Origin: Streptomyces sp. NBS 14/10 | GTDB lineage: Bacteria > Actinomycetota > Actinomycetes > Streptomycetales > Streptomycetaceae | Length of the DNA: 64,000 nucleotides | Direction of reading: 5' to 3' | Assembly: GCF_002224125.1 (NCBI RefSeq) | Contig: NZ_NCSM01000003.1 | Coordinates: 379,747-443,746 of the forward strand | Part shown: positions 53,622 to 60,071 of the stretch, piece by piece | Numbering within the stretch: position 1 is the stretch's first letter | Layout of the letters: every line of letters starts with the position of its first letter | Position numbers and translations under genes: made by a program | Notes under the pieces: model-generated | Seen by the model: the letters and a program-made list of their open reading frames with translations, nothing else | What the model was told of the DNA's origin: nothing | Database searches by the model: none

Positions 53622-53825
53622 GCGGAGTGCTCAGTAAGGACCGCTGATGGCGCACCCCGAACGGCCCGTTCCGACCGCCCTTGAGTAGTGCACAATATGA
53701 GGCCGTCATCACTCAAAGGGGGGCCCGTTGCGGATCGGCGTTGAGGCGAGCGGTGCTGGGCGAGGGCAGCGAGGGCAGCGGCGGCTCACCGCCGCGCCCG
53801 CCGGTGCGATTGAGGGGCGGCAGCG

Positions 53826-56534
53826 GTGACGGTCCTGCCCGACGCGGCCACCTCACGGGCGGTGCTCATCGGCACCAGCCGCTACGACCACATAGAGCAG
53901 CTGCCGACGGTGGCGAACAACCTCCGCGCGCTCGCCGCCGCCCTGTGCGCCCCGCACACCTGGGGACTCGCCCCCGAGCACTGCACGGTCATCGAGAACC
54001 CCCAGGACCCGGTCGAGGTCCTGGACGCCGTCCGGACCGCGGCCGAGCAGGCCACCGACACCCTGCTGGTGTACTTCGCCGGCCACTCCCTGGTCGAGCC
54101 GCGCCGCGGCGAGCTGGTCCTCGGCCTCACCGGATCGCAGCGGCAGCGGTCCTATACGGGACTGTCGTACGGCACCCTGCGCGATGTCATGTCCGACGGC
54201 CGGGCGGGCCGGCGGGTGATGCTCCTCGACTGCTGCCTCAGCGGTGCGACGCCCGGTTTCGTGGACGGGATCGAGGCGGTGGTCGACCGCGCGGACCTCG
54301 ACAGCGCCTGTCTGCTGGCCGCCGTCCCCGACAGCAGCTTCGCGTTCGCCCCGCCCGGCGAGGCCCACACCGCCTTCACCGGCGAACTGCTCAGACTGCT
54401 GGGCGAAGGGGTGCCGGGCGGGCCGCAGCTGCTCGACCTGAGCACCGTCTACGGGCAGGTGTACGCGGCGATGGGCGCCAAGGGACGGCCGCTGCCGCAC
54501 AAACGCGACCGCGGCGGCATCGCGGGCGGCATCGCCCTGGCGCGCAACACGGCCCCCGTCATGCCCGTCTTCGGCCCGACGCCCCCGGCGTACGCGCCGG
54601 GCGCCGGCGCTCCCCTGCCGCCCCCGCCGTACGCCCCCGGGCAGACTCCCCCGCCGCCGCCCGCCCCGCCCGCCTGGCCCCCGGGATTCGCCCCGGCGCA
54701 GGCCCCCGGCAGCGGCGCGCCGAACAACCGCCGGATCCTCATCCGCTCCGCGATAGCGGTGGCGGTCGTCGGTGGCCTGCTGGCCGCCGGCATCCCCCTG
54801 GTGAACAAGTGGACGGAGGACGACTCCCCCAAGAAGACCGTCGCGAAGCCGTCGCCGACGAGCACCCCGACGAAGAAGGTCCCCGCCCCCGCGTACAACG
54901 ACGCGACCGAGCGCGTCGTCAATCCGTCGAAGGCCAAGGGCGGCACGCTGAAGTTCGTCGGCAGGAGCGACGCCGACTCCTGGGATCCGCAGCGCAGCTA
55001 CTACGGCTTCGCGTGGAACTTCTCCCGCTACTTCACCCGTCAGCTGGTCACCTTCGCCCCCAAACCCGACAAGGGAGGCTCCGATCTGGTCCCGGACCTC
55101 GCGACGAGCAAGGCCAAGGTGAGCGAGGGCGGCAAGACGTACTCCTACACCCTGCGCTCCGGGATCACCTGGGAGGACGGCTCGCCCATCACCTCCGAGG
55201 ACGTCAAATACGGCATCGAGCGGGGCTGGGCCACCGATGTACTCCCCGGCGGCCCGACCTACTTCAAGCAGGTCCTCGACCCCGACGGGAAGTACAAGGG
55301 CCCCTACAAGGACGACAAGCTGGGCCTGAAGGCCATCGAGACTCCCACGTCGAACACCATCGTCTTCCATCTGGCCGAGCCCAACAGCGACTTCGAGCAG
55401 ATGCTGGCGATGCCGGCCGGTTCGCCCGTGCCGAGCGCGAAGGACACCAAGGCCAAATACCAACAGCGTCCATTCTCCTCCGGGCCGTACAAATTCGGCT
55501 CGTACACGCCGAACAAGTCGCTGGAGCTGGTCCGCAACACCGAATGGAAGCAGAGCTCCGACCCCGTCCGCGCCGCCCTGCCCGACCGGATCACGGTCGA
55601 CATCATCCAGGACGACAATGCCAGGAGTCAGCGGCTCTTCGCGGGCTCCTACGACGTGGATCTCGAACCGACCTCGCTTCCCAAGCCGGCCATCGCCAGG
55701 GCTGTGAGCAGCACCGAGCTCAAGACCCGGCTGGACGACCCGTACACCATGGGCATCCGCTATCTGGGCCTGCCGCGGACCGTCAAGCCGATGAACAACA
55801 TCCACTGCCGCAAGGCGGTCATCTACGGGACGGACCGGCAGTCCATACAGACGGCCCTCGGCGGCCCCGGCGGCGGTGAGATCGCCACCAACATGCTCCC
55901 GCCGGGCATCGAAGGGGCGAACCCCACCGACGATCCGTACGGGGTCCGGGAGCGCGGCGGAAGGGCCGATGTCGCCAAGGCGAAAAAGGAACTGGCGGCC
56001 TGCGGCAAGCCGAACGGCTTCCGGACCACCGTCGCGGTCCGCGCCGGAAACCCCGACGACCTCTCCGCCGCTCAGGCGCTGCAGTCCTCGCTGAAGTCCA
56101 TCGGGATCAGCTTCACCATCGAGCAGATCGAACTCGGCCAGTACTACCAGGTCGTGGGCTCGCCCTCCACCGTCAAGAAGAAGGGCTACGGCATCATCCT
56201 CGCGCGGTGGCTCCCCGACTTCCCGACCGCCCAGGGATTTCTCCAGCCCCTGGCCGACGGCCGCTTCATCCTGCCCACCGGCAATGTCAACTTCCCCCAG
56301 TTGGACGACAAATCCATCAACAACCTCTTCGACAAGGCGATCGCCGGGCAGGACCGCAGGGAGATCAGGGAGATGTACCGGCAGATCAACCGGAAGGTCT
56401 CCGACAGCGCCGGCTTTGTCCCCCTGACCTTCCAGAAGAGCTACACCTGGCGCGGCCCGCGGCTGACCAATGTCTATACCAGCCACATCTATGCCGGCGG
56501 TTACGACTTCGCGTCGCTGGGTGTCACCCCGTAG
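53826..56534 (+). CDS. transmembrane caspase-like protease fused to an oligopeptide-type solute-binding domain
   Basis: 902 residues. Residues 1-240 are a caspase (C14) domain of the actinobacterial type (SRAVLIGTSRYDHIEQLPTV, NNLRALAAAL). Catalytic His87 lies in VYFAGHSL and catalytic Cys137 in LLDCCLSG, both intact. Residues 241-300 are Pro-rich. A basic NRRILIR precedes one helix (about 304-325), so the protease should face the cytoplasm. After a Thr/Pro/Lys linker, about residues 355-902 are a full SBP_bac_5 (DppA/OppA-type) domain: GGTLKFVGRSDADSWDPQ, FSRYFTRQLVTF, YTLRSGITWEDGSPITSEDV, FSSGPYKFGSYTP. The GTG at 53826 has GAGGGG 8 bases upstream. The architecture suggests a receptor that couples peptide binding outside to protease activity inside. 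This is inference; the proteolytic target is unknown. Confidence 0.88.
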   Translation: MTVLPDAATSRAVLIGTSRYDHIEQLPTVANNLRALAAALCAPHTWGLAPEHCTVIENPQDPVEVLDAVRTAAEQATDTLLVYFAGHSLVEPRRGELVLGLTGSQRQRSYTGLSYGTLRDVMSDGRAGRRVMLLDCCLSGATPGFVDGIEAVVDRADLDSACLLAAVPDSSFAFAPPGEAHTAFTGELLRLLGEGVPGGPQLLDLSTVYGQVYAAMGAKGRPLPHKRDRGGIAGGIALARNTAPVMPVFGPTPPAYAPGAGAPLPPPPYAPGQTPPPPPAPPAWPPGFAPAQAPGSGAPNNRRILIRSAIAVAVVGGLLAAGIPLVNKWTEDDSPKKTVAKPSPTSTPTKKVPAPAYNDATERVVNPSKAKGGTLKFVGRSDADSWDPQRSYYGFAWNFSRYFTRQLVTFAPKPDKGGSDLVPDLATSKAKVSEGGKTYSYTLRSGITWEDGSPITSEDVKYGIERGWATDVLPGGPTYFKQVLDPDGKYKGPYKDDKLGLKAIETPTSNTIVFHLAEPNSDFEQMLAMPAGSPVPSAKDTKAKYQQRPFSSGPYKFGSYTPNKSLELVRNTEWKQSSDPVRAALPDRITVDIIQDDNARSQRLFAGSYDVDLEPTSLPKPAIARAVSSTELKTRLDDPYTMGIRYLGLPRTVKPMNNIHCRKAVIYGTDRQSIQTALGGPGGGEIATNMLPPGIEGANPTDDPYGVRERGGRADVAKAKKELAACGKPNGFRTTVAVRAGNPDDLSAAQALQSSLKSIGISFTIEQIELGQYYQVVGSPSTVKKKGYGIILARWLPDFPTAQGFLQPLADGRFILPTGNVNFPQLDDKSINNLFDKAIAGQDRREIREMYRQINRKVSDSAGFVPLTFQKSYTWRGPRLTNVYTSHIYAGGYDFASLGVTP

Positions 56535-56547
56535 CCGGGGCGCGGCC

Positions 56548-58032
56548 ATGTGGGAGTCGCTGTTCGAGGGGCCGGAGCCCACGGAGCGGTTGCGCGAGAT
56601 GTGGGCGCAGGGGCTGGGGGCGAACCCGGCCGTACCCGACGACCTGCGGTGCGATTTGCTGGGCCGCTCGCGTTACCTTCTGTGGCGCGAGCAGTCTGCC
56701 TCGGTCGTGGAAGCCGCCGTCGCCCACCCGGAGTGGAAGGTGCGGGAACAGCTGGCCGAGTGCCAGCCGAACCTCACGGCCGAGTGCTGGGCCCGGCTGA
56801 TCCTGGGCGAGCGGAAGCCCAGGAACCTGTGGGTCCTCACCATGATCGCGGCGGACCGGCGCGATGAGCTCACCGAGGCCGCGTACGAACGGGTGGCCGC
56901 CCACCCCGAGGCGCGTATCCGCGCGGAGGCCACCCGGCTGACGGGGCTGCCCGTACGGCTGCTGACCGCGCTGGCCCTCGACCCGGAGCCCGGCGTACGG
57001 GCCGCCGCCTGCCCGCGCGCCTGGCCACATCTGGACGGGGCGGCCCGACAGGGGCTGCTGGCCGACCCCGAGGACGGGGTCCGCGTGGCCGCGCTGCTGC
57101 GCCACCATGAGCACGGTGAAGACCACGACGCCCAGCCGCTGCCCCGGTCGGTCTTCGAGGCAGAAGATCTCGGCGACGCTGCTCTCGAAACCTGTCATCT
57201 GACGCACGACCTCGCCGAGCACCTGACCCACCACGGCACCAAGGCCCAGCGGAGTCGCCTCGCGGGCAACCCGCGGCTGGCCCCGGAGCTGATCGCCGTG
57301 CTCGCCAGGGACCCCGACGACGGGGTCCGCCATGTGGTGGCCCTACGGCCGGAGCTCACCGAGGAACAGCGGGCGGACATCCGGGTGGACATCGACCCGG
57401 ACGGGCTCACCCACGCGCTCGACTGGGTCACCGCACTCCACGACGACCCCGAAGCGATGCGCCGTCTTGCCGCCTCGTCCCACCTCCCGGTGCGCCGGAG
57501 CGTGGCCCGCGCGAAGCGTCTGCCGCCGGACGTGGTCGAACGCCTCGCCCGGGACGAGGACCGCGTCGTACACCTCTTCCTGGCCGAGTCCTGCGACGAC
57601 GCGCCCACCGACATGCTGCTGGAGGTGTGGGGGTGGTGGACCGGCAGCCTGACCTGTCCCGACCGGCCGCGCGGCCATCCGAACTTCCCGCGCCACGGCC
57701 TGCTCCGGTACGCCGACGACCCCGACCCGCGGATGCGCCAACTGGCCCTGGACGACCCGGAGTCGACGCCCGAGCTGGTGAAGCGGTTCGCCCGGGACGC
57801 CGACAACGAGGTACGGCTCCGGGCCGCGAAGGACCCGCGGCTGCCCGTGGATTCGGCAGTGCGGCTGGTGGACGACCCCGAGTGGACCATACGGAGGGCG
57901 GCGGCCCGGCACCCCGGGCTGCCGGCGGAGGCGCTGGTGCGGCTGCTGCGGGATCCCGAGGCCGCGGAGGAGGCGGCCCGGCATCCGGCCCTGCCCGTGG
58001 ACGTCATGCGGCGGATGATCCGGCAGCCTTGA
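56548..58032 (+). CDS. HEAT/leucine-rich-variant repeat protein, partner of the caspase gene
   Basis: 494 residues made of about 14 short helical repeats of the pattern LAxDPDxxVRxxVAxRP (LLADPEDGVRVAALL, LARDPDDGVRHVVAL, FARDADNEVRLRAA, LVDDPEWTIRRAAARHP), typical of LRV/HEAT scaffold proteins in Streptomyces. Cys residues are few and no iron-sulfur motif is visible. No membrane segment or signal peptide. The ATG at 56548 lies 13 bases after the caspase/SBP stop with GCCGGGG just upstream, so the two genes are almost certainly one transcript. A binding partner or substrate adaptor of the caspase is the obvious hypothesis. It converges on the SDR gene with a 16-base gap. Confidence 0.82.
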   Translation: MWESLFEGPEPTERLREMWAQGLGANPAVPDDLRCDLLGRSRYLLWREQSASVVEAAVAHPEWKVREQLAECQPNLTAECWARLILGERKPRNLWVLTMIAADRRDELTEAAYERVAAHPEARIRAEATRLTGLPVRLLTALALDPEPGVRAAACPRAWPHLDGAARQGLLADPEDGVRVAALLRHHEHGEDHDAQPLPRSVFEAEDLGDAALETCHLTHDLAEHLTHHGTKAQRSRLAGNPRLAPELIAVLARDPDDGVRHVVALRPELTEEQRADIRVDIDPDGLTHALDWVTALHDDPEAMRRLAASSHLPVRRSVARAKRLPPDVVERLARDEDRVVHLFLAESCDDAPTDMLLEVWGWWTGSLTCPDRPRGHPNFPRHGLLRYADDPDPRMRQLALDDPESTPELVKRFARDADNEVRLRAAKDPRLPVDSAVRLVDDPEWTIRRAAARHPGLPAEALVRLLRDPEAAEEAARHPALPVDVMRRMIRQP

Positions 58033-58901: not shown

Positions 58902-60071
58902 TCACTTCCCGGCTGCGGGCGGACGCAGTCGTTCCGGCGGTGGCGGAGGTGTTTCGGGGGGCTGCTCTGTCTCCCGGAGCTGAGGTGCTTCCGGGGGCTG
59001 GAGCGGCGCCGGGCGGTGGGGGCGGCTCTCCTTGACCCGTTCCACCGCGGCCAGCAGATCCGCCTGGCCGACCCGGTCCCGCCCCGTCAGCAGCGCCTCC
59101 GCCGCCGCGTCGATCACCGCGCGGCGGATGTCCCGCCCGGTGACGTCGTCGACGGCGGCGAGGTCCTGCGTACGGACGTCGTCGGCCAGGGGCAGCGTCC
59201 CGGGCAGGTGGCGGCACCAGATCCGGGCGCGGGCCGCCTCGTCGGGGACCGGGAACCGGACGTGCCGGACGCGGCTGTCGAAGGCGGTGTCGTAGCTGGA
59301 CACCAGGTTGGTGGCGAACACGGCAAGTCCCTCGAACCGGTCGAGCGCGGTGAGCAGTTCGCTGCGCATGGCGTTCACCGCGTGCTCGGAGCCGTGGCTG
59401 GTGGTCTCGAAGCGGGCGGACATCAGGCCGTCCGCCTCGTCGAGGAAGAGCACCGCGCCCTGGGTCCCGGCGGCGTGGAAGAGCGCGTCCAGGTTCTTGG
59501 GCCCCTCCCCGTGGTACTTGCTCTCCAGCTGGGAGGCGCGGGCGGCGATCAGCGGGCGGCCCAGCCGGTCCGCGATGGCGTGGGCGGCCATCGTCTTGCC
59601 GGTGCCGGGCGGGCCTTCGAGGTTCACCGCCGAGCTGGGGTGCGGCTGGATGGTCCGCAGCCCCCACTCCTCGAACAGGGTGCGGCGCCGCTCCACGATG
59701 TGGATCGCGCGCAGCAGCTGCTCCATGGTCCGGTCGGGGAGCACCAGCCGGTCGAAGGTGTACTGCGGGGCGGTGGCGGTGAAGTGCTCCGCGCGCTCCG
59801 CCACCGAGGGTCCGTCCCCCGCCTCCCCCTCGGCCTTCGCCTCGGCCTTCGCGGGTGGTCGGTCCGCGGGCCGGTTGGTGATGGTGACGGTGAGCGGTTC
59901 CGGCCCGTGGTGGCCGCCGAAGGCGTCCACGGCGGCGATCAGACGGCTGCGCAGCAGGGCCGCCTCGACCTCGTCGGTGCCGCCGGGGATGCCGGTGACG
60001 GCGAACGCGGGGCGCGGCGCCGCCCCGCCCGGCCGTACGGGGTGGCCCTCGGGCCTGGTGTTCCTCTTCAC
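58902..60071 (-). CDS. AAA+ ATPase (FtsH/Cdc48-like core)
   Basis: 389 residues. An N-terminal region of about 110 residues with a Lys/Ala/Glu-rich linker is not recognised. The AAA+ core has Walker A EGPPGTGKTMAAHAIAD (about 150-158), pore-loop-like SQLESKYHGEGPKNL, Walker B AVLFLDEADGL, sensor 1 VFATNL and an Arg-finger-like DSRVRHVRF, followed by the lid. The last 50 residues are Pro-rich. It probably remodels proteins. The GTG at 60071 has GGAGGAG 5 bases upstream. It lies 90 bases downstream of two coupled small genes and may act with them. No protease domain. Confidence 0.87.
   Translation of the reverse strand: MKRNTRPEGHPVRPGGAAPRPAFAVTGIPGGTDEVEAALLRSRLIAAVDAFGGHHGPEPLTVTITNRPADRPPAKAEAKAEGEAGDGPSVAERAEHFTATAPQYTFDRLVLPDRTMEQLLRAIHIVERRRTLFEEWGLRTIQPHPSSAVNLEGPPGTGKTMAAHAIADRLGRPLIAARASQLESKYHGEGPKNLDALFHAAGTQGAVLFLDEADGLMSARFETTSHGSEHAVNAMRSELLTALDRFEGLAVFATNLVSSYDTAFDSRVRHVRFPVPDEAARARIWCRHLPGTLPLADDVRTQDLAAVDDVTGRDIRRAVIDAAAEALLTGRDRVGQADLLAAVERVKESRPHRPAPLQPPEAPQLRETEQPPETPPPPPERLRPPAAGK

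Follow-up and report, generated by a model that had tools for sequence, protein, structure and literature searches.

What is a caspase-like protease doing on the same polypeptide as a solute-binding protein (SBP) domain? The question is raised by a gene in a 64,000-nucleotide stretch of DNA from Streptomyces sp. NBS 14/10 (contig NZ_NCSM01000003.1, positions 379,747 to 443,746; hereafter the window), whose predicted product consists of an N-terminal caspase, a linker, a single membrane helix, a stalk and a C-terminal SBP_bac_5 domain (Table 1). The caspase is of the type associated with EACC1, the partner in a two-gene system ('System 4') that was defined by Kaur et al. (2020; PMC7159879) and tied to a multicellular habit. 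With slightly better than even confidence, we regard the gene product as a membrane-anchored receptor-protease, in which a cytoplasmic EACC1-family caspase would lie under an extracytoplasmic peptide-type SBP domain, a judgement that draws on sequence comparison and predicted structures.

Two domains in one reading frame

The open reading frame at 53826..56534 (+) is free of internal stops over its 902 codons from the GTG start, so that the single chain described in the earlier note, which had been made from the letters of the sequence, is confirmed. That note had worried about a frameshift between the halves; both lie in one frame in Streptomyces sparsogenes and in another four genomes from the genus, and six complete fusion chains are open over 902–1120 codons. 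Since the identical chain layout recurs in several genomes, a frameshift or mis-assembly is ruled out as its source and the fusion is neither chance nor an assembly artefact.

The N-terminal half matches the NCBIfam family NF047832 ('caspase, EACC1-associated type') at 220.6 bits, and its S. sparsogenes orthologue does so at 223.3 bits (cut-off 140). The caspase assignment thus stands clearly in both orthologues through this family and less well through Pfam Peptidase_C14, which the earlier note had proposed as a check: the window chain scores marginally above the cut-off (23.6 against 21.4 bits) and the orthologue has no match at E 0.01. The caspase model of PADLOC gave a weak match to the window chain (E 0.00038). 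An AlphaFold model of the caspase part, based on five sequences, was of moderate quality (pLDDT 70, pTM 0.76, with most of residues 140–172 low), and Foldseek matched it to the MALT1 paracaspase and to caspases 4, 11 and 9 (prob 1.00, best E 1.5e-7, TMq 0.55); a search of the PDB with the five-sequence caspase profile found no chain at E 0.1. His87 and Cys137 stand where the earlier note had put them, in conserved columns, and the profile score, the catalytic His and Cys and the caspase fold together place the domain in NF047832. In the model of the full chain (pLDDT 73) the SBP part is good and the caspase part weak.

The C-terminal half is a complete SBP_bac_5 domain, as previously noted: residues 421–811 match Pfam PF00496 over profile positions 2–362 of 368 with 251.9 bits (cut-off 32.4). 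Sequence and fold agree on the nearest solved structure, that of OppA2 from the clavulanic acid cluster (2wok, 2wop), which is 38% identical over the whole domain; the TM-score of 2wop to the SBP half is 0.94 by target. By comparison with OppA and DppA structures, Asp798 would be the residue that holds the N-terminal amine of a bound peptide.

Between the two domains, residues 303–324 form the sole hydrophobic stretch past the caspase in hydropathy plots (no dedicated signal-peptide program was run), which speaks against secretion of the whole chain. The 18 residues before the helix hold two Arg and no acidic residue and the 16 after it hold four Lys/Arg and three Asp/Glu; three orthologues have RRR or a longer basic run immediately before the helix. 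For the N-in orientation that had been proposed from the preceding Arg residues, the charge evidence from the window chain is thus weaker than had been stated. The caspase is probably inside the cell and the SBP domain outside.

Table 1. The fusion gene, its parts and its flanks (coordinates in the window)
Feature	Coordinates	Strand	Details and evidence
Upstream intergenic stretch, 204 nt	53622..53825	+	Partly conserved in S. sparsogenes and S. milbemycinicus
Caspase–transmembrane–SBP_bac_5 fusion gene	53826..56534	+	902 aa, GTG start; open reading frame, Pfam, NCBIfam, relatives
Caspase domain of EACC1-associated type, residues 1–230	53826..54515	+	NF047832 at residues 10–218; Foldseek of AlphaFold model
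His87 codon, predicted catalytic	54084..54086	+	His in 136/137 aligned family members
Cys137 codon, predicted catalytic	54234..54236	+	Cys in 136/137 aligned family members, the remaining one a gap
Pro-rich linker, residues 231–302	54516..54731	+	Length differs among orthologues; pLDDT under 50
Single membrane helix, residues 303–324, without lipobox Cys	54732..54797	+	Hydropathy; model helix 306–317, in a low-confidence part
Lys/Pro/Ser/Thr-rich stalk, residues 325–371	54798..54938	+	Sequence composition, orthologue alignment
SBP_bac_5 (OppA2-like) binding domain, residues 372–902	54939..56531	+	Pfam, PDB sequence match, fold match
Asp798 codon	56217..56219	+	Invariant in 7/7 fusions
LRV/HEAT-repeat gene	56548..58032	+	Pfam; 13 nt past the fusion stop if the start is ATG 56548

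A binding domain without lipobox or permease

Two traits of an ABC-importer lipoprotein were sought in the fusions. The lipobox Cys is absent from all seven of them and present in all 68 unfused homologues (67 by the lipobox pattern, the 68th as TAACS). In a second set, taken from a search of 121 genomes with a profile of the helix and SBP part (66 rows, of which the best 30 were examined), a lipobox was found in 25 of the 25 unfused loci and in none of the five known caspase fusions, which overlap those of the first set. That profile had been built from the window chain and four of these five, so that their top ranking is by construction and no evidence. In the same search, SBP matches at G058:C1:6747341-6749155, about 5 kb from a caspase, and at G065:C1:229582-231393 start near the helix region in frames of more than 1000 codons and are possible further fusions.

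The other trait is adjacent permease genes. The genome has an unfused SBP of its own, 54% identical, that sits between two DppB/DppC-like permease open reading frames (L002, assigned by reading the frames); unfused SBPs in general are presumed to be transporter subunits, permeases having been looked for at L002 only. With these permeases as queries, nothing better than E 0.22 was found in the window; a Pfam scan of seven neighbouring products showed no ABC subunit, and a motif scan of the window found one ABC-ATPase, at about 5635, 48 kb from the fusion gene. As far as these searches go, the earlier statement that no importer subunit is nearby holds. Judging from the sequences, the receptor part probably arose from a transporter-type SBP that lost its lipobox and then was joined behind signalling domains.

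Distribution of the fusion and exchange of its output domain

A scan of the contigs of other genomes with the window chain returned 72 loci: a full-length relative in S. sparsogenes (963 aa, 70% identity), a caspase half in S. milbemycinicus (93% identical, running to the contig end; L086), a caspase in Dactylosporangium, a kinase–SBP fusion (L024) and 68 unfused SBPs. The caspase of Dactylosporangium aurantiacum (L094:5992-7428) is of the EACC1-associated type and is fused to a TIR-like FxsC C-terminus.

EACC1-type caspases are encoded in 69 of the 121 genus genomes, that of the window included (E 1e-35), with 134 in total. Comparison with the other 133 loci, some of them interrupted by contig ends, showed SBP_bac_5 behind the caspase in five of the 134 (the window, L152, L154, L166 and L265). 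The fusion is thus present in four of the 120 other genus genomes, one of which (L166) has a caspase of another lineage. In a sample of the family, 44 of the 61 genomes carry the caspase, and none of 60 examined among 62 new caspase loci (59 from another genus and one from this genus, 8 of the 60 incomplete) has an SBP_bac_5 fusion. A plasmid origin was tried and rejected: 2,166 plasmid records match, none of which spans 80% of the query in one place.

The helix and SBP part is also found behind a different enzyme. The L024 open reading frame, on a contig from a Streptomyces metagenome-assembled genome (MAG), starts with a protein kinase of which the C-terminal part is present (38.4 bits in Pfam against a cut-off of 31.7; AfsK as best relative in NCBIfam, far below the AfsK cut-off) and continues with a run of basic residues, a helix and the SBP known from the window chain. 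The helix regions of L024 and of the window chain are alike, GLLAVGIPVGLNW and GLLAAGIPLVNKW. In the SBP tree (65 rows; 15 unfused loci were left out because the start motif missed them), a single group (96/87) unites the SBP of the window with those of S. sparsogenes, G031, G055 and G096, L166 and L024 lie outside it on long branches closer to unfused SBPs, and the label 'fused' requires at least two changes. In the caspase tree, made by a quick method, six fusions fall together (support 83) and L166 stands elsewhere, beside L145, L146 and L156. By these trees and domain matches, the helix and SBP part has three kinds of partner, namely caspases of two lineages and one kinase. Because it follows different output enzymes, it is more easily read as an input than as a payload, an inference for which the kinase example is single. 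The receptor-like layout proposed in the earlier note is supported by the fused halves, the helix and the lack of an importer in the searches, and the same cassette on a kinase strengthens the sensor reading.

Outer-domain variants of these caspases recur in the sample, as propeller, L272, WD40 and Peripla_BP_6 types were all found, in keeping with the EACC1-system trait of a constant caspase with a variable C-terminal domain. A phytase-like, propeller-related C-terminal half occurs in 10 of 197 caspases (phmmer, E 1e-5: L159, L184, L196, L218, L220, L201, L204, L179, L251 and L303; Pfam match checked in L159, L184, L201 and L251). Related outer regions unite another 12 of the 197 by the same measure (L272, L271, L274, L343, L344, L329, L273, L340, L268, L335, L314 and L317); two of them were scanned with Pfam and gave SBP_bac_11 (L272) and VWA (L268), both below cut-off. 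Ten caspases in all were scanned with Pfam, with WD40 in two and Peripla_BP_6 in one.

The missing EACC1 partner and the locus

The usual partner of these caspases, EACC1, is a small membrane gene located immediately 5' of the caspase gene. This genome has two EACC1 genes, each of which adjoins another caspase; a profile grown from the pair finds an EACC1 gene upstream of 119 of the 133 caspases. In L152 and L154 (G055 and G096), the EACC1 stop codon is 2 nt before the fusion start; the profile found none upstream of L166 or L265. At the window, the 204 nt between the FAD gene and the fusion leave no room for the EACC1 domain with its 107 positions, and no EACC1 gene is found 5' of the fusion, nor beside the copies in S. 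sparsogenes, S. milbemycinicus, G031 and G064; the gap to the upstream neighbour in S. sparsogenes and S. milbemycinicus is under 200 nt. The absence of the usual partner at the window and the loss of catalytic-motif residues in near relatives (see below) go beyond the earlier note.

Gene order is EamA–EACC1–fusion–SDR in G096, EACC1–fusion–SDR in G055 (the short segment compared there shows no EamA), FAD–EamA–fusion–SDR in S. sparsogenes, FAD–fusion in S. milbemycinicus and FAD–fusion–LRV–SDR in the window. The window thus shares the SDR gene with S. sparsogenes, G055 and G096, whose FAD gene is also found, among these, in S. sparsogenes, and in S. milbemycinicus besides. We read the four neighbourhoods with the SDR gene as one locus, from which EACC1 would have been lost from an ancestral pair, the alternative being its gain in G055 and G096. 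One chromosomal locus for all fusions is not borne out: in G031 the EamA gene converges on the fusion from the 3' side, on the opposite strand, and G064 shares no tested neighbour.

Three of the five SBP fusions in the survey lack EACC1, against 12 of 129 other caspases (Fisher p 0.01, which is optimistic because of shared descent); one of the EACC1-less loci, L181, was counted on about 100 nt of upstream sequence. A general rule that a transmembrane segment of the caspase's own replaces EACC1 is unsupported across all caspases (p 0.79, below).

Downstream of the fusion, the LRV/HEAT-repeat gene may form an operon with it, by their spacing. Searches with tblastn found no LRV homologue in L023, L086 (where the contig stops inside the caspase), L152, L154, L166 or L265, and the SDR gene comes after the fusion in G055, G096 and S. 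sparsogenes with no LRV homologue between. Farther on, at 58902-60071 (-) of the window, an AAA ATPase is weakly similar to the anti-phage IetA/IteA family (98 bits, cut-off 510). In a viral contig (L278:3526-5857, IMGVR_UViG_2731957741_000002), an EACC1-like open reading frame adjoins a caspase with several hydrophobic stretches; its neighbours, read as open reading frames with no family scan, resemble phage structural genes, and this EACC1–caspase pair may be prophage-borne.

Rates of change in the two halves

Rates were obtained by a simple Nei–Gojobori count, in which dN/dS is inflated in high-GC genes and serves for comparisons only. Between the window and S. sparsogenes, the caspase has a dN of 0.126 (dS 0.183), near the 0.103 of the neighbouring FAD gene and the 0.094 of the penicillin-binding protein (PBP) gene, so that the protease half appears to be still constrained. 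The fused SBP has a dN of 0.187, about four times the 0.049 between this genome's unfused SBP and its S. sparsogenes counterpart (L091); against two other species the unfused SBP has a dN of 0.073 and 0.112. In the EACC1-bearing pair (G055 and G096), the caspase is under much tighter constraint (dN 0.018, dN/dS 0.16) and the SBP is again faster (dN 0.145). Rapid change outside the membrane combined with constraint on the protease is compatible with ligands that change and with freedom from docking to a permease, which the data do not separate. Together, the exchange of output domains, the lost lipobox Cys and the faster evolution of the SBP favour a ligand sensor.

A proposed receptor-protease and its alternatives

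The receptor-protease that we favour would work as follows. A ligand with a free amine, that is, a peptide or an amino acid, perhaps containing Arg, would bind the SBP outside; Arg is suggested because OppA2 has been crystallised with arginine and with bradykinin. Closure of the SBP on the ligand would alter the packing or clustering of the helices, the caspase domains would be brought together, and proteolysis in the cytoplasm would be switched on. The output would be damage-limiting death or stasis, matching the conflict role proposed for EACC1 systems; the suicide, phage-defence or developmental switch suggested in the earlier note is likewise putative. A narrower version is less likely than not: an EACC1-independent, single-chain, ligand-gated caspase, in which the helix and SBP part would have taken the membrane-sensor role proposed for EACC1, so that a peptide outside would turn on the caspase inside directly; the part would then be a mobile receptor module, with a Ser/Thr kinase as another of its outputs.

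Several observations weigh against a working receptor. In the window caspase, Ser88 stands in place of a Gly that 132 of 137 family members carry, and Ser160 in place of one that 92% carry; the S. sparsogenes caspase has Arg at Gly140 and that of G031 has Arg in place of the catalytic His. The caspase dN/dS against S. sparsogenes is 0.69, compared with 0.45 and 0.49 for the neighbours and 0.16 in the EACC1-bearing pair. A transmembrane segment is found in 8 of the 15 EACC1-less caspases and in 57 of the 119 EACC1-bearing ones. The kinase fusion comes from one MAG contig (coverage 3.5) that ends inside the kinase, only 10% of bootstrap trees unite all seven fused SBPs under a single origin, and the preference for Arg is extrapolated from 38% identity. 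The ligand, topology, gating and output of the receptor are all putative.

Some of these points would suit a decaying relic, once paired with EACC1 as in G055 and G096, whose caspase is drifting towards inactivity and of which no more than a scaffold or an anchored binding protein would be left. We consider this unlikely, though a real contender. The five copies without an adjacent EACC1 gene (window, S. sparsogenes, S. milbemycinicus, G031 and G064), the lost His of G031 and Gly140 of S. sparsogenes, the replacement of Gly88 in S. milbemycinicus as well as in the window, and the contrast in dN/dS with the EACC1-bearing pair all point that way. Against it, all six complete chains are open, the catalytic dyad is retained in the window, S. 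sparsogenes and S. milbemycinicus, the upstream stretch is partly conserved and the caspase dN is near that of the neighbours; compared with S. milbemycinicus, the caspase dN/dS is 0.43, like that of the FAD gene (0.46) and above that of the PBP gene (0.16).

The general model of Kaur et al. (2020) for System 4 has EACC1 as a proposed membrane sensor and the C-terminal domains as effectors, so that the SBP would be one payload among many, released by autoproteolysis of the caspase once EACC1 senses a signal. The long linker without predicted structure would offer room for cleavage. This is improbable here: sequence and fold mark the SBP half as a binding protein, the membrane would separate it from the caspase in the proposed topology, the same cassette is found on a kinase, and no EACC1 gene is present at the window locus. 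Very improbable, in our estimate, is that the SBP still serves a peptide ABC importer encoded elsewhere, with the caspase as a passenger or a monitor of the importer. The 54%-identical SBP between permease genes at L002 is compatible with such service, but no permease was found beside the window gene, the lipobox is lost, five of the fused SBPs form a clade of their own, and the fused SBP evolves faster than its unfused relative.

Relation to known systems

The earlier note knew of no described system with this receptor. Receptor-type caspase chains are in fact on record: Kaur et al. (2020) mention EACC1-caspases with transmembrane and extracellular periplasmic-binding domains, comparable EACC2-caspase proteins, a few of them bearing CHASE2 or other outer domains, are described by Kaur et al. 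(2021; PMC8195603), and Asplund-Samuelsson et al. (2012; PMC3501461) report cyanobacterial caspase homologues with ANF_receptor or CHASE2, placing the receptor outside and the caspase inside for the CHASE2 protein. With System 4 the window protein shares the N-terminal caspase family, a variable C-terminal domain, the variant with transmembrane and periplasmic-binding domains and the actinobacterial host; unlike it, the window has no EACC1 gene, and the account in that paper leaves the periplasmic-binding family unspecified and reads the C-terminal domains as effectors. The cyanobacterial homologues likewise have a receptor-type domain on a caspase, with other receptor domains; no word starting 'SBP' or 'solute' occurs in that paper's main text.

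Closer at hand, in the same genus and family, L167 combines a caspase, one helix and a binding-protein outer domain; unlike the window it has EACC1 upstream and a Peripla_BP_6 domain (1 of 197 proteins; phmmer, E 1e-5). The L272 group also has a caspase, one helix and a binding-protein-like outer domain, differing in its weak SBP_bac_11 or VWA matches. OppA2, the nearest solved SBP, was solved alone and is not joined to an enzyme. Precedents for SBP-type sensing are GlnH–GlnX–PknG in actinobacteria (PMC6069109) and BvgS/EvgS (reviewed in PMC8534201), in which a solute-binding-type domain controls, or is proposed to control, a cytoplasmic kinase across the membrane; unlike the window protein, they have phosphorylation as output and consist of separate polypeptides or are histidine kinases.

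In the open-licence part of PubMed Central (PMC), searched by the start of titles and abstracts, we found no SBP_bac_5–caspase chain and no experimental test of the EACC1-type caspases; among the matches listed, just the two papers by Kaur et al. deal with the EACC1 system. The caspase with a receptor-type outer domain is therefore known, and the SBP_bac_5 version, the exchange with a kinase and the absence of EACC1 are new.

Biological significance

EACC1-type caspases are common in this mycelial genus, and a solute-binding outer domain is a handle that most of them do not have, through which the idea that a signal switches on such a protease becomes directly testable. The related chains with and without an EACC1 gene would provide a test of EACC1's job. 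If the ligand is a peptide from neighbours, from lysed cells or from the organism's own development, the fusion protein would be the equivalent, in bacteria, of a death receptor.

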